Assembly: GCA_913041135.1 (NCBI GenBank)
Contig: CAJWIF010000001.1
Coordinates: 1 to 64,000 of the forward strand
DNA from: an uncultured Flavobacteriales bacterium
Lineage (GTDB): Bacteria > Bacteroidota > Bacteroidia > Flavobacteriales_D > Sanyastnellaceae
DNA length: 64,000 nucleotides
Reading direction: 5' to 3'
A program made the position numbers and the translations under genes. Below the pieces are notes generated by a model, which searched no databases, had not been told where the DNA came from, and saw nothing but the letters and a program-made list of their open reading frames with translations. This document shows, piece after piece, positions 9,968 to 61,797 of the stretch (positions within the stretch are counted from its first letter, which is position 1; each line of letters opens with the position of its first letter).

Positions 9968-11145
9968 GTACAGACCAACCGACCACCCGTGGCATTGCCA
10001 TTCTTGGGAGCACCGGATCCATCGGAACCCAAGCCTTAGAGGTCATCCGGCAACAGCCCGAAGCCTTGCACGTTGAAGTTCTCAGCGCATATCGCAATGC
10101 TGACTTGCTGATTGAGCAAGCCTTGGAATTTCATCCGAATACCGTGGTCATTGGAGAACTTTCGTTGCTCTCGAAAGTCAAAGACGCGTTGTTTGATGAG
10201 GGCATTAAAGTCTACGCAGGAGAAGATGCACTCGAGCAAATTGTGGAGATGGCGGGGATCGATATGGTGCTCACGGCTTTGATGGGCGCCGCCGGATTGC
10301 GACCAACCTTGAAGGCCATACGCGCCGGAAAAGACATCGCGCTTGCCAACAAAGAAACGTTGGTGGTAGCTGGAGAGTTGATCATGTCAGAAGCACGCGC
10401 TGCAGGCGTGAACATCCACCCTGTTGATTCGGAGCACAGTGCCATTTACCAATGTCTCGCTGGAGAAGTGTTGAATCCCATTGAGAAGATCATTCTTACG
10501 GCTTCTGGAGGCCCTTTTCGCGGGCGTACGCGTGAAGCGTTGGAGGGAGTGACCAAAGCGCAAGCGCTGAAACACCCCAATTGGAGCATGGGCGCCAAGA
10601 TCACCATCGACAGCGCTTCGATGATGAACAAGGGCCTAGAGGTCATTGAAGCGAAGTGGTTATTCGATTTGCGCATGGATCAGGTAGATGTTGTCGTGCA
10701 TCCACAGAGCATTATCCATAGCTGTGTCCAATTCGAAGACGGCTCGATCAAAGCCCAAATGGGATTGCCTGATATGAAATTGCCCATCCAATACGCCTTG
10801 GGATATCCAAGACGTTTGGCCAATAATTTCGAGCGGTTCGATTTCATGAACTATCCCCAGCTCACGTTTGAAAAACCAGACTTGGAGGCCTTCCGGAATC
10901 TAGCGCTGGCGTTTGAAGCGGGAAACAAGGGAGGGAACGCTCCGTGCATTTTAAACGCCGCAAACGAAGTGGCTGTTGCGCGTTTCCTTGCGGACGAAAT
11001 TACTTTTTTAGAACTGACATCCGTAGTCGAACATGCCTTATCTCGTGTGGAATGGCTTGAATGTCCAGGTCTTGATGGGCTCCTCGATAGCGATGCAGAA
11101 GCACGCGTCAAGGCAGGCGAATATGCGCAGCAATTGGTCCGATAA
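9964..11145 (+). CDS. dxr: 1-deoxy-D-xylulose 5-phosphate reductoisomerase
   Basis: This is the second enzyme of the MEP isoprenoid pathway, converting DXP to MEP with NADPH. The N-terminal Rossmann motif ILGSTGSIGTQALEVI, the ANKETLVVAGE loop, the catalytic metal-site region PVDSEHSAIYQCL and the segment TIDSASMMNKGLEVIEA are all intact. Length is 393 residues, as expected. No ATG precedes the Rossmann motif in frame. The start used is TTG at 9964, overlapping the upstream stop. A hairpin that overlaps the TAA stop probably ends transcription. Confidence 0.97.
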   Translation: MSTDQPTTRGIAILGSTGSIGTQALEVIRQQPEALHVEVLSAYRNADLLIEQALEFHPNTVVIGELSLLSKVKDALFDEGIKVYAGEDALEQIVEMAGIDMVLTALMGAAGLRPTLKAIRAGKDIALANKETLVVAGELIMSEARAAGVNIHPVDSEHSAIYQCLAGEVLNPIEKIILTASGGPFRGRTREALEGVTKAQALKHPNWSMGAKITIDSASMMNKGLEVIEAKWLFDLRMDQVDVVVHPQSIIHSCVQFEDGSIKAQMGLPDMKLPIQYALGYPRRLANNFERFDFMNYPQLTFEKPDLEAFRNLALAFEAGNKGGNAPCILNAANEVAVARFLADEITFLELTSVVEHALSRVEWLECPGLDGLLDSDAEARVKAGEYAQQLVR

Positions 11146-11165
11146 AGCGTTCCTACAGGACGCTT
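11145..11165. terminator. Bidirectional hairpin between dxr and frr
   Basis: AAGCGT-T-CCT-AC-AGG-ACGCTT forms a nine-pair stem with one bulged T and a tight loop. It lies exactly between the convergent stops of dxr (TAA 11143-11145) and frr (TAA read from 11166-11164), overlapping both. It lacks a strong T-run on either side, so its efficiency is uncertain. Confidence 0.55.
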
Positions 11166-11727
11166 AGACCGTCATTATATCCGATTCTTTCGCGGCCAAA
11201 ATCTCATCAATTTTCTTGATGTAGCCATCGGTCAAAGTCTGAACTTCGGCCTCTCCGTCTTTTGCCATGTCCTCGCTCAGCCCATCATTCTTAGCGGCCT
11301 TGATGAAATCATTCGCTTCCTTTCTAGCATTGCGAATACCCACTCGAGCTCCTTCCCCTTCCCCACGTGCGCGCTTCGTTAAATCACGGCGGCGATCCTC
11401 GGTTAAAGATGGAATGTTAATCAAGATAGACTCTCCGTTGTTCATTGGATTCAACCCCAAATTGGCATTGATGATGGCTGTGGCGATGTTGTCAAGCATG
11501 GACTTTTCCCACGCTTGCACCGTCAAGGTTCGTGCGTCTGTTGAATTCACGTTGGCCACTTGGCTCAATGGTGTCATCGCACCATAATAATCCACCTTCA
11601 CACTGTCTAACATCGCAGGGTGTGCTTTTCCAGCGCGCACTTTGGTCAACTCAGACTCCATGTGCTTGATGGCTTTATCCATGGCTTCTCGCGCCACATC
11701 CAATGCCATTTCAATTTCCTCGCTCAT
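11164..11727 (-). CDS. frr: Ribosome recycling factor
   Basis: RRF, with EF-G, splits post-termination ribosomes. The 187-residue protein is all-helical at the ends, with the conserved RAGKAHPAMLDSVKVDYYG, the domain II segment and ILINIPSLTEDRRRDLTKRA. It is the last gene of a leftward rpsB-tsf-pyrH-frr order that is conserved in bacteria. It starts 11 bases after the pyrH stop. Confidence 0.97.
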   Translation of the reverse strand: MSEEIEMALDVAREAMDKAIKHMESELTKVRAGKAHPAMLDSVKVDYYGAMTPLSQVANVNSTDARTLTVQAWEKSMLDNIATAIINANLGLNPMNNGESILINIPSLTEDRRRDLTKRARGEGEGARVGIRNARKEANDFIKAAKNDGLSEDMAKDGEAEVQTLTDGYIKKIDEILAAKESDIMTV

Positions 11728-11738
11728 CGGTTCCGTAT

Positions 11739-12476
<738 letters not shown>

Positions 12477-15335: not shown

Positions 15336-15455
15336 GGTGAGTGTTTTGAATGTACTGTTCACCCCAAAATTGGGGCTGCGAAGATAGCAAACGGATGTTT
15401 ACAACCCAAGCTCAGGTGTGGACAAAAATCACATCGCATCAAATTCCTTCTCTAA

Positions 15456-17062: not shown

Positions 17063-17695
17063 ATGGTACCACACGACGAACATTCTCCACTTCAGCACAC
17101 CGGAATCGGCGAAGGACGCATCGAAGTCGTCTGCGGCCCGATGTTTTCAGGGAAAACTGAAGAGTTATTGCGACGGGTCCGGCGCGCTCAAATCGCCCGA
17201 CAGCCTACGCTTATTTTCAAACCAGCAACAGACACTCGCTACAATAAAGATGCCGTTACATCCCACGATTCTAACGCATTGCCCTCTGTTACGGTCAAGG
17301 ATAGTCCATCAATACTTGCACATTTACAAGCACTTGAACGACCAGTAACCGTAGTAGCCATTGACGAAGTTCAGTTTTTTGACCACGATTTACCTGCCTT
17401 GTGCACGTTTTTAGCCAATCAAGGTATTCGTGTCATTGTCGCAGGGCTCGATTTGGATTTTACAGGGGAGCCCTTCGGGTGCATGTCCGAGTTGCTTGCG
17501 CGTGCTGAGGAGGTCACAAAATTGCATGCCGTTTGCATGGAAACGGGCAGGCCTGCACATTTTTCACATAGGATAGCAGGGGGCGATACGACCGTAGAGA
17601 TTGGTGAAAAAGACTTGTATATCCCATTGACGAGACAAGCTTTTGTAGAGGCCCGCAAACAAGGCGGTAGAGACTCCGAAGCGGAGCGCTCATGA
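17063..17695 (+). CDS. tdk: Thymidine kinase, type II
   Basis: This enzyme phosphorylates thymidine for salvage. The P-loop GPMFSGKTEELLRR is at residues 25-38, with DEVQFF in the Walker B region and GLDLDFTGEPFG as the nucleoside loop. Length is 210 residues. The structural zinc site of type II kinases normally uses CxxC pairs. Here the first pair reads CMET and the distal pair is absent (IPLTRQAF), so zinc is probably lost. A -7-like TAATTTCG is at 17044-17051. The stop overlaps the murF-alr start (ATGA). Confidence 0.94.
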   Translation: MVPHDEHSPLQHTGIGEGRIEVVCGPMFSGKTEELLRRVRRAQIARQPTLIFKPATDTRYNKDAVTSHDSNALPSVTVKDSPSILAHLQALERPVTVVAIDEVQFFDHDLPALCTFLANQGIRVIVAGLDLDFTGEPFGCMSELLARAEEVTKLHAVCMETGRPAHFSHRIAGGDTTVEIGEKDLYIPLTRQAFVEARKQGGRDSEAERS

Positions 17696-33128: not shown

Positions 33129-33139
33129 TACGTTGTTTG

Positions 33140-33221
33140 TACCCGGAGTGGGAATCGAACCCACACTCCTTTCGGAACACGAGTTTGAGTCGTGCGCGTC
33201 TACCAGTTCCGCCATCCGGGC
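33140..33221 (-). tRNA. tRNA-Leu (anticodon CAA)
   Basis: The minus strand reads GCCCGGATGGCGGAACTGG at the 5' end, with a D-arm containing GGTAGACGC. The anticodon arm is CACGA-CTCAAAC-TCGTG, giving anticodon CAA. A long class II variable arm follows, then the T-arm GTGGGTTCGATTCCCAC and the 3' acceptor strand TCCGGGT with discriminator A. CCA is not encoded. The first acceptor pair is G-U. The gene has its own promoter and terminator. Confidence 0.95.
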
Positions 33222-52259: not shown

Positions 52260-52679
52260 ATGACCGAAACCATGCAACAACTGCAATTCCACTCTCAACC
52301 CGAAAACATTGCTGTAATCGAGCGATTGATTGATGAAATCCGAGACGGACAATCCTTTCAAGAGGAGTGTTACGGAGATGTTCTCATCGCGATGACAGAA
52401 GGCGTCAACAACGCCATTGTCCACGGAAACCGTTTGGATGCGACGAAACTCGTTTTTGTTGAGTACGAACTGCGCACATCCGATCTTTACTTCAAGATCA
52501 CCGACCAAGGACCCGGTTTTGATTTTGAAAACGTCCCTGACCCGACAGCGCCTGAAAACCTGGAGAAACCGAACGGCCGAGGAGTCTTCTTGATGCGCCA
52601 ATTGTCCGATGAATGCACGTTCTCTGATGATGGCCGTGTGGTTGAGCTGACGTTCCAAGGGGTGTTCTCTGCGCCCTGA
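52260..52679 (+). CDS. RsbW-like GHKL ATPase / anti-sigma factor kinase
   Basis: This is a 139-residue single-domain histidine-kinase-like ATPase. The N box is AMTEGVNNAIVHGN, G1 is ITDQGPGFDFENVPDP and G2 is NGRGVFLMRQLSDE. These are the motifs of the RsbW/SpoIIAB class. Such proteins are serine kinases that bind a sigma factor or phosphorylate an anti-sigma antagonist. Neither a sigma factor nor a STAS antagonist lies nearby, so partners are elsewhere. It starts 14 bases after the DUF4175 stop. Confidence 0.9.
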   Translation: MTETMQQLQFHSQPENIAVIERLIDEIRDGQSFQEECYGDVLIAMTEGVNNAIVHGNRLDATKLVFVEYELRTSDLYFKITDQGPGFDFENVPDPTAPENLEKPNGRGVFLMRQLSDECTFSDDGRVVELTFQGVFSAP

Positions 52680-52693
52680 ATTCGCATTCTGTA

Positions 52694-53122
52694 TTGCCCA
52701 TTTCTTTTCACAATGCGGACCACCCTTATCGCTGTCCGCAACGCCGTTTGATCAAAGCCTGGCTCACTGATGTGGTACAGTCCCATCGGAAAATCGTCGG
52801 AGACGTCTCGATTGTTTTTTGCACGGATGCGTATCTCTTGACGATCAATCGAGATCATCTTAAGCACGACTATTACACCGATATCATCACGTTTGATTAT
52901 TGTGAAGGACCCTCGGTTTCTGGTGAGCTTTACATCTCGATCGATCGCGTCAAAGACAACGCTAACACACACAAACAACTGTTTAAAAACGAGTTAAAGA
53001 GGGTTGTTGTGCATGGGGTACTGCATTTATTGGGATATATGGACAAGTCAAAAGCAGATCAAACACAGATGACGCACTTAGAAAACAAGTGGCTGACAAC
53101 CTTCAATACGCTCAACGCATGA
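52694..53122 (+). CDS. ybeY: Endoribonuclease YbeY, rRNA maturation
   Basis: This is a 142-residue zinc-dependent RNase used in 16S rRNA 3'-end maturation and ribosome quality control. TDIITFDY is the conserved middle motif, and the metal site is VVHGVLHLLGYMDK, followed by an Met/His-containing segment. The second position of the usual HGxLHLxGYDH is MD, as in other Bacteroidota members. The start used is TTG at 52694, since no ATG precedes the family's start. The stop overlaps the mnmG ATG (ATGA). Confidence 0.9.
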   Translation: MPISFHNADHPYRCPQRRLIKAWLTDVVQSHRKIVGDVSIVFCTDAYLLTINRDHLKHDYYTDIITFDYCEGPSVSGELYISIDRVKDNANTHKQLFKNELKRVVVHGVLHLLGYMDKSKADQTQMTHLENKWLTTFNTLNA

Positions 53123-54990
53123 TCCATCAAGGATATGATGTTATCGTCGTTGGGGCGGGTCACGCAGGAAACGAAGCGGCTGCGGCTTCAGCGAACCTTG
53201 GTGCCCGCACCCTTTTGATCACCATGAACATGGGCGTCATTGGCCAAATGTCATGCAACCCAGCCATGGGTGGGATTGCCAAAGGGCAAATCATCCGAGA
53301 AATTGACGCCATGGGCGGGTACTCTGGAGTTGTGAGTGATCACAGCGCAATCCAGTTCCGTATGCTCAATCGATCCAAGGGGCCAGCTATGTGGTCTCCA
53401 CGTACTCAGAACGACCGGATGCGCTTCGCTGAAAAGTGGCGTTTAATGCTTGAAGGCACTCCCCTACTCGACTTCTGGCAAGATGCCGTCACCGAACTGA
53501 TTATTGAAAATGGCGTTTGCTGCGGTGTAAGAACGCAATTGGGTTCGACCATTCGGTCCAAATCCGTTGTTGTCACGGCAGGTACATTTCTAAATGGTCT
53601 GATGCATATCGGAGAAAAACAATTTGGCGGTGGACGTGCAGGTGAACGTTCAGCTGTTGGGATCACAGAGCAGTTGGTCGAAAATGGCTTTACAGCCGAC
53701 CGCATGAAAACGGGCACACCCCCTCGCGTCGATGGAAGAAGTATTCATTACAGCGTCTTAGAAGAACAACTTGGAGACCCTGATCCTCGGCGTTTCTCTT
53801 ACACAGACACCCCTATATTACAAAATCAACGAAGCTGTCACATCGCTCACACCAACGTCCAGGTCCACGACATCCTGCGCGACGGGTTCGACCGATCACC
53901 TATGTTCAATGGCCGCATTCAAGGTCTTGGCCCGCGCTATTGCCCGAGTATTGAAGATAAAATTGAGCGATTCCACACCAAGGATTCACACCAGTTATTT
54001 GTCGAACCAGAAGGATGGGAAACAGTCGAAGTCTATGTCAATGGCTTCAGCACAAGCCTACCTGAAGACATCCAAGTGAAAGCGCTTCGTTGTGTTCCTG
54101 GTTTCGAAGGCGTGAAATTCTTTCGACCTGGATATGCTGTCGAATACGACTTCTTCCACCCCACCCAGCTCAAGCACAGCCTAGAAACCAAGCAGCTTCA
54201 AAACCTATTCTTCGCTGGTCAGATTAACGGTACAACTGGATATGAAGAAGCCGCCGCTCAAGGTTTAATGGCCGGAATCAATGCTGCACGTTCCACGTGG
54301 AACAAACCACCAGTCGTCCTCAAAAGAAATGAAGCATACATCGGTGTGCTCATCGACGATCTCGTTACCAAAGGCACCAAGGAGCCTTACCGCATGTTCA
54401 CGTCACGTGCGGAATACCGCATCCTTTTGCGCCAAGACAACGCCGACCAGCGCCTCACCCCTTTATCACACGCTATCGGGTTGGCATCGAGCGAGCGCAT
54501 GGAAACATTGGAGTCCAAGATCAAGACCATGCGGTCGTTCAAGACCCAACTCGAAAAAACAAGCGTCAGCCCAGACCAAGCTCAAACGCTTCTCGAATCG
54601 ATCCAAAGCGCACCTTTACAACAAAAGCAAAAAGCCATTTCCGTGTTAAATCGGCCCGGTGTTGGCGCACAATTAATGTTTGACCATATCCCGGAAATCG
54701 ACGCCATCGGCAAACACTTGCAAATGGACATTGAAACCCTGGAGGCTATTGAGGTTCAAATCAAGTATGCGGGATACATTGAAAAGGAACAGGCAATCGC
54801 TGACAAATTGCAGCGATTGCATCACGTTGCCATACCGAATGACTTCAATTATCACGCACTCGAATCCTTGAGTAGCGAAGCCCGCGAGAAACTCACAGAA
54901 ACGAAACCCGAAACGCTTGCCGGCGCTTCCCGTATTTCTGGAGTCAGCGCGTCTGATCTGGCTGTTTTGCTTGTGAATCTCGGCCGATAA
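53119..54990 (+). CDS. mnmG: tRNA uridine 5-carboxymethylaminomethyl modification enzyme MnmG
   Basis: This is an FAD enzyme that, with MnmE, forms cmnm5U34 in tRNAs. Length is 623 residues from the ATG at 53119. The FAD loop is YDVIVVGAGHAGNEAAAA, followed by MSCNPAMGGIAKGQIIREID, the Cys-containing GTPPRVDGRSI, FAGQINGTTGYEEAAAQG, and a C-terminal helical MnmE-binding part. Its + strand is markedly C-rich compared with genes to the right, and it contains a parS-like palindrome at 54289-54304. In E. coli mnmG lies beside oriC, which is relevant to the neighbouring parS. Confidence 0.97.
   Translation: MIHQGYDVIVVGAGHAGNEAAAASANLGARTLLITMNMGVIGQMSCNPAMGGIAKGQIIREIDAMGGYSGVVSDHSAIQFRMLNRSKGPAMWSPRTQNDRMRFAEKWRLMLEGTPLLDFWQDAVTELIIENGVCCGVRTQLGSTIRSKSVVVTAGTFLNGLMHIGEKQFGGGRAGERSAVGITEQLVENGFTADRMKTGTPPRVDGRSIHYSVLEEQLGDPDPRRFSYTDTPILQNQRSCHIAHTNVQVHDILRDGFDRSPMFNGRIQGLGPRYCPSIEDKIERFHTKDSHQLFVEPEGWETVEVYVNGFSTSLPEDIQVKALRCVPGFEGVKFFRPGYAVEYDFFHPTQLKHSLETKQLQNLFFAGQINGTTGYEEAAAQGLMAGINAARSTWNKPPVVLKRNEAYIGVLIDDLVTKGTKEPYRMFTSRAEYRILLRQDNADQRLTPLSHAIGLASSERMETLESKIKTMRSFKTQLEKTSVSPDQAQTLLESIQSAPLQQKQKAISVLNRPGVGAQLMFDHIPEIDAIGKHLQMDIETLEAIEVQIKYAGYIEKEQAIADKLQRLHHVAIPNDFNYHALESLSSEAREKLTETKPETLAGASRISGVSASDLAVLLVNLGR
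54289..54304. promoter_or_regulatory. Second, imperfect parS-like palindrome inside mnmG
   Basis: CGTTCCACGTGGAACA contains the perfect palindrome GTTCCACGTGGAAC. It matches the parS consensus TGTTnCACGTGAAACA at all but the first base and position 12. It lies in the mnmG coding region about 700 bases from the perfect site. Binding by ParB is uncertain. Confidence 0.4.
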
Positions 54991-54994
54991 GCAC

Positions 54995-55010
54995 TGTTCC
55001 ACGTGAAACA
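54995..55010. promoter_or_regulatory. parS centromere site (ParB-binding)
   Basis: TGTTCCACGTGAAACA is an exact match to the widely conserved chromosomal parS consensus TGTTnCACGTGAAACA. ParB loads here and spreads, and ParA segregates the origin region; parS sites usually cluster near oriC. The site lies five bases after the mnmG stop. parA and parB are not in the window. Confidence 0.88.
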
Positions 55011-55210: not shown

Positions 55211-56743
55211 ATGGACATTCAAAACATTCTCTCCACACTCGGAATCCAAGATCACAACCACGGCGTTATGATTGGGAAGCGGGCCTTTGGAAGCGGAGCC
55301 ACTATTGATTCAATTTCACCGGTAGACGGAAAGCGGATTGCTTCAGTTTCAAGCGCAACGGCGGCAGACTATGCTGAAGTCATGGAGCACGCTCAAGCTG
55401 CATTCCTCGATTGGAGACATGTTCCTGCGCCAAAACGAGGCGAGGCCGTTCGGCAATTCGGTGATGCCCTTCGTGCAAAGAAGGATGCTTTAGGAGCGTT
55501 AGTGAGTTATGAGATGGGTAAATCACTCCAAGAAGGTTTGGGTGAGGTACAGGAGATGATTGATATCTGTGATTTCGCAGTCGGTCAAAGCCGTCAATTG
55601 TATGGAATGACAACACACTCTGAACGTCCTCTTCACCGCATGTATGAGCAGTACCACCCAATGGGAGTGGTGGGAATCATTTCTGCTTTTAATTTTCCAG
55701 TAGCCGTATGGGCTTGGAACACTGCGCTCGCTTGGGTTTGTGGTGATTCTTGCGTGTGGAAGCCTTCTGAAAAGAGCGCGCTTTGTTCCATTGCTTGCCA
55801 GCACATTTGGAATGAGGTTGCTGAAGCCAATGACGTTCCTGCAGCGCTTTCTTGCGTTGTGAATGGCATGGCTGATGTAGGAGAAATGTTGAGTAATGAT
55901 CCCATGGTGCCTCTTGTGAGCGCCACAGGTAGCACACGAATGGGTAAGGCTGTTGCTAAAGCTGTTGCCGGACGTTTGGGCCGATCGCTTTTAGAGTTGG
56001 GTGGAAACAACGCCATTATTATTGCTCCTGATGCTGATTTGAAAATGGTCGTTCCTGCCGCTGTGTTTGGCGCTGTCGGCACGTGCGGTCAACGGTGTAC
56101 TTCTACACGTCGTTTGATCATCCATCGTTCCATTTACGATCAAGTCAAAACTGTGCTGAAAAACGCCTACAGCCAACTCACCATTGGCAACCCATTGGAT
56201 GAGTCCAACCATGTTGGGCCGTTGACAGACCAAGCGGCTGTTGCAACCTATCTCGCTGCACTGCAATCCGTAAAGGATCAAGGAGGTACGTTTGTGGTCG
56301 AAGGAGGTTTGTTGGAGGGTCCTGGTTATGAGAGCGGTTGTTATGTCAGCCCTAGTATCGCTGAGGCTTCTAACGATCTAGCAATTGTTCAACATGAGAC
56401 GTTCGCACCTTTGCTTTATATGATGGCATACGACACCTTAGATGAAGCCATTGCATTGCAAAACGGCGTTGCTCAGGGATTGTCTTCTGCTATTATGACG
56501 AACAATGTCCAGGAGGCTGAGTGGTTTTTGTCTGTCAATGGTTCCGATTGTGGAATTGCAAACGTCAACATCGGCACATCAGGAGCGGAGATTGGAGGAG
56601 CGTTTGGAGGAGAAAAAGAAACAGGAGGGGGGCGCGAGTCTGGATCAGATGCTTGGAAAGCTTACATGCGCCGACAAACAAACACCATCAACTACGGATC
56701 AACCCTTCCATTGGCACAAGGGATTCAATTCGACTTGGGTTGA
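55211..56743 (+). CDS. Aldehyde dehydrogenase, ALDH7 (aminoadipate semialdehyde dehydrogenase-like)
   Basis: This is an NAD(P)-dependent dehydrogenase of 510 residues. The NAD-binding and catalytic segments are ISAFNFPVAVWAWN, WKPSEKSALC, LELGGNNAIII with the general-base Glu, and the nucleophile region GTCGQRCTSTRRL. The Cys within CTSTRRL context and the overall motif set point to the ALDH7/antiquitin group, which oxidises aminoadipate semialdehyde in lysine degradation and related aldehydes. The substrate is inferred only. The TlpA-like gene starts one base after the stop. Confidence 0.92.
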   Translation: MDIQNILSTLGIQDHNHGVMIGKRAFGSGATIDSISPVDGKRIASVSSATAADYAEVMEHAQAAFLDWRHVPAPKRGEAVRQFGDALRAKKDALGALVSYEMGKSLQEGLGEVQEMIDICDFAVGQSRQLYGMTTHSERPLHRMYEQYHPMGVVGIISAFNFPVAVWAWNTALAWVCGDSCVWKPSEKSALCSIACQHIWNEVAEANDVPAALSCVVNGMADVGEMLSNDPMVPLVSATGSTRMGKAVAKAVAGRLGRSLLELGGNNAIIIAPDADLKMVVPAAVFGAVGTCGQRCTSTRRLIIHRSIYDQVKTVLKNAYSQLTIGNPLDESNHVGPLTDQAAVATYLAALQSVKDQGGTFVVEGGLLEGPGYESGCYVSPSIAEASNDLAIVQHETFAPLLYMMAYDTLDEAIALQNGVAQGLSSAIMTNNVQEAEWFLSVNGSDCGIANVNIGTSGAEIGGAFGGEKETGGGRESGSDAWKAYMRRQTNTINYGSTLPLAQGIQFDLG

Positions 56744-57902: not shown

Positions 57903-59852
57903 TTATTTCTCTGGGAAATCATTTTCCATATCAACCTCGATACGCTTGTCTTGGTTGGCGAGTTGCCACGCCGTATGAAACACCAGGCGTCCAATCTCAG
58001 CCGTCTTGTCGTAGTGGATTTTCTCCGGATCATCTCCCGGTTTATGATAATCTTCGTGCACACCGCTGAAGTAGAAAATCACAGGAATGTTGTGTTTCGC
58101 AAAATTGTAGTGATCAGACCGGTAGTAAAAACGATTCGGATCATCCGGTGCGTTGAATGTATAATCCAATGCCAATTGCGTGAACTCACTGTTCGCGTTT
58201 TCACTGATCTCATGAAGCTCAGAAGACAGCTTATCTGACCCAATGAGATACACATACCGATCGTCATCCGGGTGTGCCTCATCTGTCCTTCCGATCATAT
58301 CGATATTGAGGTTGGCGACGGTGTTTTCAAGTGGCCAAACAGGATGATCTGAATACCATTCACTTCCTAACAAACCTTTTTCCTCTCCAACAACCGTCAT
58401 CAACAACACACTCCGGCGAGGCCCTTCTCCGGCATCCACAGCCGCCATCATGGCTTGAGCCAGCTCCAAGACCGTAACCGTCCCTGAACCGTCGTCGTCC
58501 GCCCCGTTATGGATTTCACCGTCGATCACACCCACGTGATCATAGTGTGCTGTAATCACCACCAACTCCTCCCGTAACACAGAGTCTCTTCCTGGAATAT
58601 AACCGAGTACGTTTTGCGTGTTGAATTTCCCTGAACGATCGTCCAGGTTAAAAGACCAGCTCGCTGTTGGCATTGACTGAGCTGTTATGACTACACCCTT
58701 CGCTTTCTTCTTCTGGACCTTTTTCCAGTTTTTCAAGGTTGTTTGACCCCACCAACCCTTGGTTGAACTGCCTTCCATGAAAAAAGTAGGTAAACGCGTT
58801 CCTTCTGTTTCTTTTGGATCCGGTTGATCCAGTCGCATTGACTTTCTCAATAACCAAGGTTTTAAACGGCCTTTATACGCTCCCAACCCTTCACCTATGA
58901 CAACTAAAGCTCTGGCTCCGCTGGCCTCTGCGTTCATCCGCTTCTTTTCAAGACCATCGCGCCAATTCTCCTCCGCTGCACCCGCTGTTCCCGAAAAAAC
59001 AACCACCACTGAACCGGTACAATCCAACCCTCTAAAATCATCTGGTTCACCCCAGGAAGCAAACACCATTGGAAGGTTTTCCATTGACTTGTCCCGGATA
59101 CCCGGATAGAATACATACTCCTCTAAAAATTCAAAGGACGTCCCTGAAACCGTCAGGCTTCCCCCTAAAATTTGCGATCGAACCATCGATACCTCTTGGT
59201 AATAACCTGCTTCATGGTACGGTGCTATCCCAACAGACTCGAAATAACTCGATATGTAAGCGGCCGCTTTTTCTGCACCAGGTTCTCCTGTTTCACGCCC
59301 CTCAAAAGCATCACTCGCGAGCACCGTTAGATGGTTTTCCAAATCGCTTGCGTTGATTGTTTCAGCCCACTTTGTGGGTTGCGCTGATAGCACTGAAAAC
59401 AAGGCCATGAAACCAACCAAGCTCGCACACGCTATTTTACCCACACGCCGATCATGCCGACCTCCTTCAAATTCCTCTGATAAGAACGTTGTGACGATAT
59501 CCAAAGCTTCAGCTTCATCAACAAACCGCGCAGGGATGCAGATGATATTTGCGTTATTATGTTGTCTTGTTAGCGCTGCCGTTTCAGCACTCCATGCTAT
59601 CCCTGCCCGCACGGCTTGGTGTTTGTTGGCTGTCATCGCCACACCATTTGCAGAGCCACAAATAAGGATACCTCTGTCCACTTCTTCGTTTTGAACATCC
59701 AGCGCCACTTGGTGCGCATGGTCCGGATAATCTACACTTTCGTTGGAATCTGTTCCCCGATTGATTACTTCGTGGCCTTTGGATACTAACTGTTCCGTGA
59801 TTACCTTTTTAAGTGCTGGACCGGCGTGATCGCCTCCAATTGAAATGCGCAT
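57903..59852 (-). CDS. RpiB-M28 peptidase fusion protein
   Basis: This is one open frame of 649 residues from the ATG at 59852. Residues 1-142 are a complete ribose-5-phosphate isomerase B, with RISIGGDHAGPALK, the catalytic region ILICGSANGVAM and the canonical end EGGRHDRRVGKIAC. A hydrophobic signal-like segment (SLVGFMALFSVLSAQ) follows directly, then a complete M28 metallopeptidase of about 490 residues. A PA-like insert precedes VITAHYDHVG, NGADDDGSGT, VVGEEKGLLGS, DMIGRT and the zinc ligand SDHYNFAKH. A cytosolic enzyme joined to an exported peptidase is odd. An internal GTG at 59444 or ATG at 59408 could start the peptidase alone, making this two overlapping genes without a stop between them. 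Both parts look intact. Confidence 0.85.
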   Translation of the reverse strand: MRISIGGDHAGPALKKVITEQLVSKGHEVINRGTDSNESVDYPDHAHQVALDVQNEEVDRGILICGSANGVAMTANKHQAVRAGIAWSAETAALTRQHNNANIICIPARFVDEAEALDIVTTFLSEEFEGGRHDRRVGKIACASLVGFMALFSVLSAQPTKWAETINASDLENHLTVLASDAFEGRETGEPGAEKAAAYISSYFESVGIAPYHEAGYYQEVSMVRSQILGGSLTVSGTSFEFLEEYVFYPGIRDKSMENLPMVFASWGEPDDFRGLDCTGSVVVVFSGTAGAAEENWRDGLEKKRMNAEASGARALVVIGEGLGAYKGRLKPWLLRKSMRLDQPDPKETEGTRLPTFFMEGSSTKGWWGQTTLKNWKKVQKKKAKGVVITAQSMPTASWSFNLDDRSGKFNTQNVLGYIPGRDSVLREELVVITAHYDHVGVIDGEIHNGADDDGSGTVTVLELAQAMMAAVDAGEGPRRSVLLMTVVGEEKGLLGSEWYSDHPVWPLENTVANLNIDMIGRTDEAHPDDDRYVYLIGSDKLSSELHEISENANSEFTQLALDYTFNAPDDPNRFYYRSDHYNFAKHNIPVIFYFSGVHEDYHKPGDDPEKIHYDKTAEIGRLVFHTAWQLANQDKRIEVDMENDFPEK

Positions 59853-60234
59853 GGATTCAAATTTCAAGCAAGTTAATTAACAACCCACTCGTTGATAGCG
59901 TTAATCTTCCGTTTACAACTCCTAACAACTCATACTTGCTATTTCCAGCTCTCAAACGTAAGCCAACCTTGACGTGATTTATCCAACTAATTTGGTTGGA
60001 AGTTTTCGTTCATTTTATCACCCAACTTCACTCAATTACGGACAACTTGCATGTGTGAATTCTTTACACAACCAACAAAGACCCCAAGCTGTTAATGAAA
60101 CCATTAAACCATTGATTTACACTATCCTCTTATTAGATTCTATGTTTAAAACCACCCCAAATATTGTTCAGAATTCATAAAATCTACTTCCATTGCATCA
60201 TGTTACCAACCGTTTCAACAGACCTATAGTTACT
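59853..60234. other. AT-rich intergenic region between rpiB-M28 and the YwqK-like gene
   Basis: This is a 382-base gap between divergently transcribed genes. It is clearly AT-rich and contains the ATTCTTTACACAA element at 60059-60071 within a small TGTG/CACA inverted arrangement. A near-match to a DnaA box (TTATCCAAC) is at about 59980. A 68-codon frame at 59974-60180 lacks family features and is not called. TATAGTTA just before 60235 could be a poor -7 box. Confidence 0.5.
60059..60071 (+). repeat. 13-base element ATTCTTTACACAA, copy 2
   Basis: This is identical to 55092-55104. The flanks TGTG and CACA make a partial inverted repeat here. Function is unknown. Confidence 0.35.
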
Positions 60235-61797
60235 ATGATTTATTCTTTAAGAATATATACATATATACTATGTTGTTCATTCATAATCTCCGTTTCAGCT
60301 CAGCCAGAAATTGAAAATTGTGTCTGGACAACATTTACTTTTGAGGATGGAAAAAAAGCAAGTGAAGGGTGTTTGGTCGAAAATCAACCAGAGGGAGAAT
60401 GGACAACATTTTTCGAAAATGGGATTTTAAAAAGCAAGGGCTCACGGAGTGAATTTGAATTGGATGGTGTATGGGAATTTTACCACGAAAATGGAAATAT
60501 TCAAAGACGGGTAGAATTTGAATTCGGTCAGAAGAATGGAAAGGAGTGGAATTTTAAGGAGCAAGGAAACCTCGTTACAGAACGTGTTTTTAAAAAGGGT
60601 GTTCAGGTAGGAATTCAGTTGGATTATGATCCATCCGGATGGATTAAAAAGAGAACTCCTTTTAAAACTGGTAAAACCCATGGTTGGGGTAGAGAATGGA
60701 CGGAGGACGGCCGGGTTATCGCATTATTCGAATACGATGAAGGCCGTTTGAGATCAACGCAACGGATCAATGCGTTGGATGATCAAAATAGAAAAACGGG
60801 GATTTGGATGGAGTGGAATTCCATGGAACGGAAAACAGAAGAAGGTCCTTGGCTTGCAGGAAAGCGAAACGGAATTTTCAAGTTTTACAACAGTTTTGGC
60901 CAATTGGATTATCTAGAAAAATATGAATTTGGAGAGGTTGTAAAAGATGCAGAGGAAACAACACCTGTAGATGTACGAACAACACGCCATCCAAATGGGG
61001 TTATTGCAACAAAAGCTACGTATTCAGAGGATGCATTGATTGGTATTTTTAGAGCGTATGATACCACTGGAACACTGGAGTCAGGAGCGTTATACGAGGC
61101 TAATAAAAAAGTAGCAGAAGGCATTACAAATAAGGAAGGTAATCGCACGGGTTGGTGGGTGTGGTTTGACGAAATGGGAAATAAAAAAGCCAGTGGAAAC
61201 TATACAGCTGGAAAAGAGGAGGGGAAGTGGGAGTACTTCAATGCACTGGGTGAGATTATCCAAGAAGGTTTTTTTAAAAACGGACTGTACCATGGGGATT
61301 GGACCTGGTATTATCCCAATAAATCCCTTCATCGAAAAGAGCAATACCGAAAAGGGAAAGAGAACGGCGTATTTATTGAATGGAATATCACCGGAGAATT
61401 ACTCAATCAAGGTGTTTATCAGAACGGTTTGAAGCAAGGTGATTGGATAGAAGATGTCAATGACCACAGAGAGGAAGGAGCTTATATAGATGGAATGAAA
61501 GACGAAGAGTGGAAGCACTTTAATGCCGATTCAAAGCAAAGTTTTAAAGGAAGTTTTATTTTTGGACTACCTGATGGAAAACACACTTTTTATCAAGAGA
61601 AGGGGGGAGTTGATCATATAGAACGGTACCAAGGAGGAGTGAAACAAGGAAAATGGATTTTCTACAATTCAGATAATCTCATCGAGCAAACACGAGAATA
61701 TCGTCAAGGAGAATTGATAAAAGTGGATGGTCAAACCATTAAAACAAGAAGAAAAAAGCGTGCAGACCGTGATCTAAAAAGAACGAAAACACCATGA
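60235..61797 (+). CDS. Secreted MORN/YwqK-type repeat protein
   Basis: This is a 520-residue exported protein from the ATG at 60235. The signal peptide IYTYILCCSFIISVSAQ is followed by about twenty MORN-variant repeats of ~20-23 residues with the pattern GxW-x-x-(F/Y)-x-x-x-G. Examples are PEGEWTTFFENGILKSKG, LDGVWEFYHENGNIQ and EGKWEYFNALGEIIQEG. This is the family that databases label YwqK antitoxin, but in Bacteroidota these are mostly surface proteins and no toxin is seen. Two basic residues clusters end it. The gene is AT-richer than average. Its stop overlaps the PAS-protein ATG (ATGA). Confidence 0.85.
   Translation: MIYSLRIYTYILCCSFIISVSAQPEIENCVWTTFTFEDGKKASEGCLVENQPEGEWTTFFENGILKSKGSRSEFELDGVWEFYHENGNIQRRVEFEFGQKNGKEWNFKEQGNLVTERVFKKGVQVGIQLDYDPSGWIKKRTPFKTGKTHGWGREWTEDGRVIALFEYDEGRLRSTQRINALDDQNRKTGIWMEWNSMERKTEEGPWLAGKRNGIFKFYNSFGQLDYLEKYEFGEVVKDAEETTPVDVRTTRHPNGVIATKATYSEDALIGIFRAYDTTGTLESGALYEANKKVAEGITNKEGNRTGWWVWFDEMGNKKASGNYTAGKEEGKWEYFNALGEIIQEGFFKNGLYHGDWTWYYPNKSLHRKEQYRKGKENGVFIEWNITGELLNQGVYQNGLKQGDWIEDVNDHREEGAYIDGMKDEEWKHFNADSKQSFKGSFIFGLPDGKHTFYQEKGGVDHIERYQGGVKQGKWIFYNSDNLIEQTREYRQGELIKVDGQTIKTRRKKRADRDLKRTKTP

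Follow-up and report, generated by a model that had tools for sequence, protein, structure and literature searches.

A probable chromosomal parS pair at mnmG in an uncultured Flavobacteriales bacterium, with one copy inside the coding sequence

Background

The window analysed here, that is, the whole stretch of 64,000 nucleotides, contains a 16-bp near-palindrome directly behind mnmG, and the question raised by this locus is whether the palindrome is a chromosomal parS, the bacterial centromere, and whether it lies close to the replication origin. The chromosomal parS sites of ParABS systems belong to the TGTTTCACGTGAAACA class (Livny et al. 2007, as cited in PMC10197239). We conclude, with a probability of about 95%, that the site is a chromosomal parS of a ParABS system and that it is one of a pair, the second member of which is embedded in the mnmG coding sequence.

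The two parS sites and their gene neighborhood

The tRNA modification enzyme gene mnmG (gidA) occupies positions 53119-54990 of the plus strand (Pfam GIDA, 1.1e-156); its open reading frame opens at a GTG at 53089, and the likely start is the ATG at 53119, which overlaps the stop codon of ybeY. The latter gene, encoding an rRNA maturation endoribonuclease (52694-53122, plus strand; Pfam YbeY, 3.4e-25), is the conserved upstream neighbor of mnmG in Bacteroidia and is located immediately 5' of it in 38 of the 54 named loci. The same cluster includes a HATPase_c_2 gene for an anti-sigma-factor-like ATPase (52260-52679, plus strand; Pfam PF13581, 1.7e-22) that is found close to mnmG in many named loci. 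The downstream neighbor is an L-piperidine-6-carboxylate dehydrogenase gene (55211-56743, plus strand; NCBIfam NF050084, 811 bits vs a cut-off of 730), which is outside the parS system.

An exact 16-base parS match behind mnmG had been claimed in an earlier note on this DNA, and the claim is confirmed, position included: parS site 1, TGTTCCACGTGAAACA, is located at 54995-55010 on the plus strand, 4 bp past the mnmG stop codon (54988-54990) and about 200 bp ahead of the start of the aldehyde dehydrogenase gene (55211). It corresponds to TGTTNCACGTGAAACA with N = C and is the single exact copy of the perfect parS in the draft genome (2,295,495 bases). The search for more copies for which the same note had called yielded, across the whole draft, one further site within one mismatch of TGTTNCACGTGNAACA, which the note had missed. 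This parS site 2, CGTTCCACGTGGAACA (54289-54304, plus strand; one mismatch), lies within the mnmG gene, 5' of site 1 by about 0.7 kb, where it spans codons 401-405 of the frame opening at 53089 and is read as the peptide RSTWN. Judged by its sequence and location, site 1 is a genuine parS, a predicted ParB docking site for chromosome segregation, of an ordinary kind and in an ordinary place.

Several other features of the window were recorded along the way. The sole structured RNA found in it is a tRNA-Leu (CAA) at 33139-33221. A single open frame at 57903-59867 combines ribose-5-phosphate isomerase B with an M28-type peptidase that has its own apparent signal peptide, as a result of either gene fusion or loss of a stop codon. 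Between 60000 and 64000, the GC content falls to 39-43%, compared to about 49% before, and the GC skew turns positive; this region, which encodes a MORN/LIC20035-like repeat protein and an apparent PAS-type sensor protein, may have been acquired or may be under a different constraint.

Conservation of the DNA word

Within the genus, a strict parS is located 5-15 bp 3' of the final coding codon of mnmG in 15 of the 15 members listed. When the window is compared by blastn with the genus members G001, G010, G012 and G015, the similarity ends at or just after parS: the final base of the aligned block is window position 55010, the end of parS, and similarity returns only at the next gene. The position of site 2 is kept in 24 of 24 relatives, in 23 of which the word, CGTTCCACGTGGAAC, is identical.

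Across 24 relatives, the amino-acid-invariant codons of mnmG number 189 at fourfold or higher degeneracy, of which just two, 402 and 403, are also codon-invariant, and 116 at two- or threefold degeneracy, of which just one, 405, is so. No other degenerate codon of mnmG is free of variation. All three lie within the internal parS, and codon 401, the first of that site, ranks next in conservation among those of at least fourfold degeneracy. Other lineages have the parS core word elsewhere in mnmG and read it differently, namely, as VPRGT at residue 533 (own numbering) in Bacteroidales-like loci and at residue 502 in locus L238, and as MFHVEL near residue 535 (a number estimated from the offset) in the relative G032. 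Together with RSTWN here, the word is used in all three reading frames of mnmG, depending on the lineage, and it is therefore the DNA that is conserved. Such three-frame use is hard to account for other than by selection on the DNA word; on this comparative evidence, both parS sites are under selection and conserved as DNA.

The association of parS with mnmG

The strict parS motif is present in 69 of 100 relatives, and the reversed control motif in 3 of the 100. Across 77 named mnmG loci (1.37 Mb), 95 of the 98 parS sites with at most one mismatch lie in mnmG or within 1 kb of it; 20 composition-matched shuffled palindromes produced 3 matches in total in the same sequences. These reversed-pattern and shuffled-palindrome controls rule out a chance match. 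At the level of the order, 73 of 76 strict parS copies (75 among the matches listed, plus the window's own) are located within 850 bp of mnmG, and the remaining three reside on contigs without a detected mnmG (no mnmG was found in G038, and the mnmG of G047 and of G060 resides on another contig). The other parS copies, which the earlier note had allowed might turn up far from this locus, are thus located at mnmG. Across the phylum (80 genomes), 72 of the 75 strict copies listed are within 2 kb of mnmG.

No parS site of any kind was found at mnmG in 24 of the 77 named loci; these loci, mainly from Saprospirales and Spirosomataceae-like bacteria, with some from Chitinophagales, count against the interpretation adopted here. 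Among the individual loci in which parS is absent near mnmG are L193, L195, L196, L199, L209, L230, L232, L233 and L237, from Saprospiraceae, Spirosomataceae-like bacteria and some Chitinophagales. In Chlorobi-like and Ignavibacteria-like loci, parS is found at mnmG although the neighboring ybeY is absent, and because these loci retain parS, the tie is to mnmG itself. A search of the open literature, the founding Livny 2007 survey not included, returned nothing relevant on Bacteroidetes that connects parS to mnmG (gidA), so that, in the papers searched, the phylum-wide mnmG address of parS appears to be unreported, the kind of element itself being well known. The motif, its conservation at the DNA level and its fixed address at mnmG are established here.

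In most genomes parS lies at one edge of mnmG, 5' or 3', and other regulators bind CACGTG cores too; the palindrome might therefore be no centromere but an operator or an E-box-like site through which mnmG or the downstream dehydrogenase gene is regulated. We consider this quite improbable. Depending on the lineage, the site lies upstream of, downstream of or within mnmG, in three frames, which fits a position marker better than an operator; conservation encompasses the full 16-bp parS word, beyond CACGTG; and the Bacteroidia loci that lack ybeY beside mnmG, for example, most of those in Saprospiraceae, tend to lack parS as well. Because parS is missing from most Saprospiraceae loci without the ybeY-mnmG order, it seems that, within Bacteroidia, parS tracks location rather than mnmG function.

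The chances are slimmer still that the site is part of an RNA hairpin or a transcription terminator following mnmG. The palindrome is near-perfect and lies right behind the stop codon, and a second inverted repeat, which is G+C-rich (GGGCC-GGCCC), follows further behind, but the folding does not surpass that of shuffled sequence (z -0.61), and neither a forward terminator-like site nor an Rfam match was found at the site. Moreover, the second copy lies well within a coding sequence and other copies lie upstream of mnmG. The retention of the parS letters in relatives, where an RNA stem would permit paired co-variation, also speaks against this possibility.

parS and the replication origin

The proposal of the earlier note that this parS lies near oriC is supported by four single-contig relatives, in all of which the GC skew switches near mnmG-parS, not far from it. 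In G032 (4,097,636 bp), the skew minimum at 3,647,125 is about 8 kb from parS at 3,638,924, and in G062 (3,980,026 bp), the minimum at 316 is about 17 kb from parS at 17,389; the skew was sampled by stretches and is continuous only around the minimum in these two genomes. In G155 (2,841,677 bp), the sign of the skew flips between the samples at 1.44-1.46 and 1.49-1.51 Mb, which bracket parS at 1,477,125, and in G153 (3,465,871 bp), it flips 0.12-0.27 Mb away from parS. Thus, parS is near the skew-predicted origin in the relatives, closely in G032, G062 and G155, and roughly in G153. The accompanying claim that mnmG flanks oriC is borne out by these relatives and extends by extrapolation to the 174-contig draft under study, in which the nearness of parS to the origin is suggested by the local skew.

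In the two relatives mapped, G032 and G062, the skew-predicted origin lacks its usual markers, dnaA and parB. In G032, dnaA (1.98 Mb) and parB (1.97 Mb) reside about 1.66 Mb off parS, in the half of the chromosome that contains the terminus; in G062, dnaA (0.46 Mb) and parB (2.88 Mb) are both remote from mnmG-parS.

Within the window, the two local signals that had been adduced for a nearby origin hold in part. An AT-rich tract is indeed present beside parS (from 55021, 65% AT over 120 bp) but is one among many, the strongest AT-rich stretch being at 60.06-60.36 kb (68-73% AT). Strand composition does change, with the window's cumulative GC-skew minimum at 60,305, about 5.3 kb from parS, but this minimum is shallow. 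The candidate origin region is the AT-rich gap at 59868-60234 (no strand assigned) between the divergently transcribed rpiB, on the minus strand, and the MORN-like gene, on the plus strand, where a local skew minimum is found. The gap holds the AT maximum in 8 of 8 genus genomes, and in 7 of the 8 the local skew minimum falls in it or adjacent to it; a conserved stretch, GGCAAGTTAATTcACAA...GGTTGATAG, is present there in the eight genus members. Of the features of an oriC, it displays the AT-richness and the local skew minimum; no DnaA-box cluster was found at 59868-60234, with no more than scattered weak matches nearby, and for this reason we treat the gap as a candidate origin only. It could be oriC or, equally, a pair of divergent promoters. 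Most likely, the parS site is close to the probable start of chromosome copying; for this strain we infer the closeness to oriC, the origin itself not being proven.

ParB, ParA and Smc

A genome without ParB would have refuted the proposal of the earlier note; ParB was found in 89 of 100 relatives. In the draft itself (174 contigs), ParB was not found, probably because the contig that carries dnaA, C50, ends before parB is reached. In the sister species G014 (C12 = L177), parA (10551-11363) and parB (11365-12267) lie about 8 kb ahead of dnaA, on a different contig from mnmG-parS; C50 aligns with G014 end to end at 95.9% and halts at sister position 15,395, about 3.1 kb past the end of parB as placed in G014. 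The missing ParB is a point against the chromosomal parS interpretation, but most likely the strain's own parB lies in an assembly gap, although this is not proven; the end of C50 and the sister-species parA-parB pair make it unlikely that the genome lacks ParB.

The ParB of G014, encoded directly after ParA, carries the GERRFRA motif and retains the equivalents of R173 and G201. In the ParBs of relatives, the GERR nucleotide-binding motif and the R173 equivalent are present in 30 of 30, and the G201 equivalent in 29 of the 29 that cover this position. R173 and G201 are conserved in ParB, where they read parS, and are changed to Q and R in Noc, which reads the NBS site (PMC7383237). Two points are thus established: the sister species has a parA-parB pair with parS-type recognition residues, and, from the skew data above, the mnmG address of parS lies near the skew switch in complete relatives.

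The same residues bear on the possibility that the palindrome is a Noc-type (nucleoid occlusion) binding site. The sister-species ParB matches the Noc model too, below the cut-off, but in the relatives, proteins of the ParB family have ParB-type residues at these positions rather than Q/R, and Noc is limited to Firmicutes (PMC7383237). Furthermore, the sites are few and clustered, not scattered along the chromosome, and we deem a Noc site highly improbable. Least credible of all is derivation from an integrated plasmid or mobile element: parS sites are found on plasmids as well, but the region has no match among 72,556 plasmids, the surroundings are a housekeeping cluster conserved in the genus, and relatives have the site at the same location, with no integrase or att site.

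A search for canonical Smc (TIGR02168) returned nothing over the cut-off in six genomes, namely, our own (G000) and five relatives, three of the genomes being single-contig. Yet parS is present, and ParB was found in the relatives. Because canonical Smc was not found, the usual role of parS as the loading site of Smc-ScpAB is doubtful here. This negative result agrees with the report of two gut Bacteroidetes without known condensins (PMC10197239).

Proposed mechanism and evolution

Under the chromosomal parS interpretation, ParB dimers would load onto both parS sites, close with CTP and slide over the adjacent DNA, and ParA would then move the ParB cluster such that the newly copied origin regions separate; both the binding of ParB to these sites and the resulting movement are predictions from the known system. 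As for the history, mnmG, parAB and dnaA probably once shared an ancestral origin cluster (PMC2099444). Judging by the relatives checked, parAB and dnaA would have left the origin and parS would have remained with mnmG, because parS needs nearness to the origin to work. A broader scenario, which we put forward tentatively and consider rather doubtful, is that mnmG is the lasting centromere host of Bacteroidota and their relatives, where, after the departure of parAB and dnaA, parS was kept or re-created at the start and the end of the gene and, on several independent occasions, inside its frame, constraining MnmG. ParB loading may be functionally linked to mnmG, or ParABS may drive segregation without Smc.

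The combination of mnmG and parS provides a simple marker of the origin region for genomes and metagenome drafts of Bacteroidota, in which dnaA and parB are misleading guides. The parS sites within mnmG are a clean natural case of a DNA element that constrains a protein sequence, in all three frames, and, with canonical Smc undetected, the lineage is suited to testing the role of parS without Smc.

Comparison with known systems

The sites share with the chromosomal parS class the same 16-bp near-palindrome, the few clustered copies near a skew switch and the presence of a ParA-ParB pair in the genus; they differ from it in that parS here keeps to mnmG, at a distance from parAB and dnaA, with one copy in the mnmG coding sequence. 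In gut Bacteroidetes mapped by Hi-C, parS clusters mark ori and dnaA does not always do so (PMC10197239). The present case resembles that one in that, in the relatives, parS marks the skew-predicted ori and dnaA is unreliable, and in that canonical Smc was not found, just as the two Bacteroidetes described there yielded no known condensin. Neither mnmG nor gidA is mentioned in that paper, and the passages considered do not discuss sites inside genes. The ancestral cluster gidA(mnmG)-gidB-parA-parB-...-dnaA is listed among the origin genes (PMC2099444). Unlike in that cluster, parA-parB and dnaA are gone from the origin in the relatives checked (e.g., G032); as in it, mnmG and the origin remain together.
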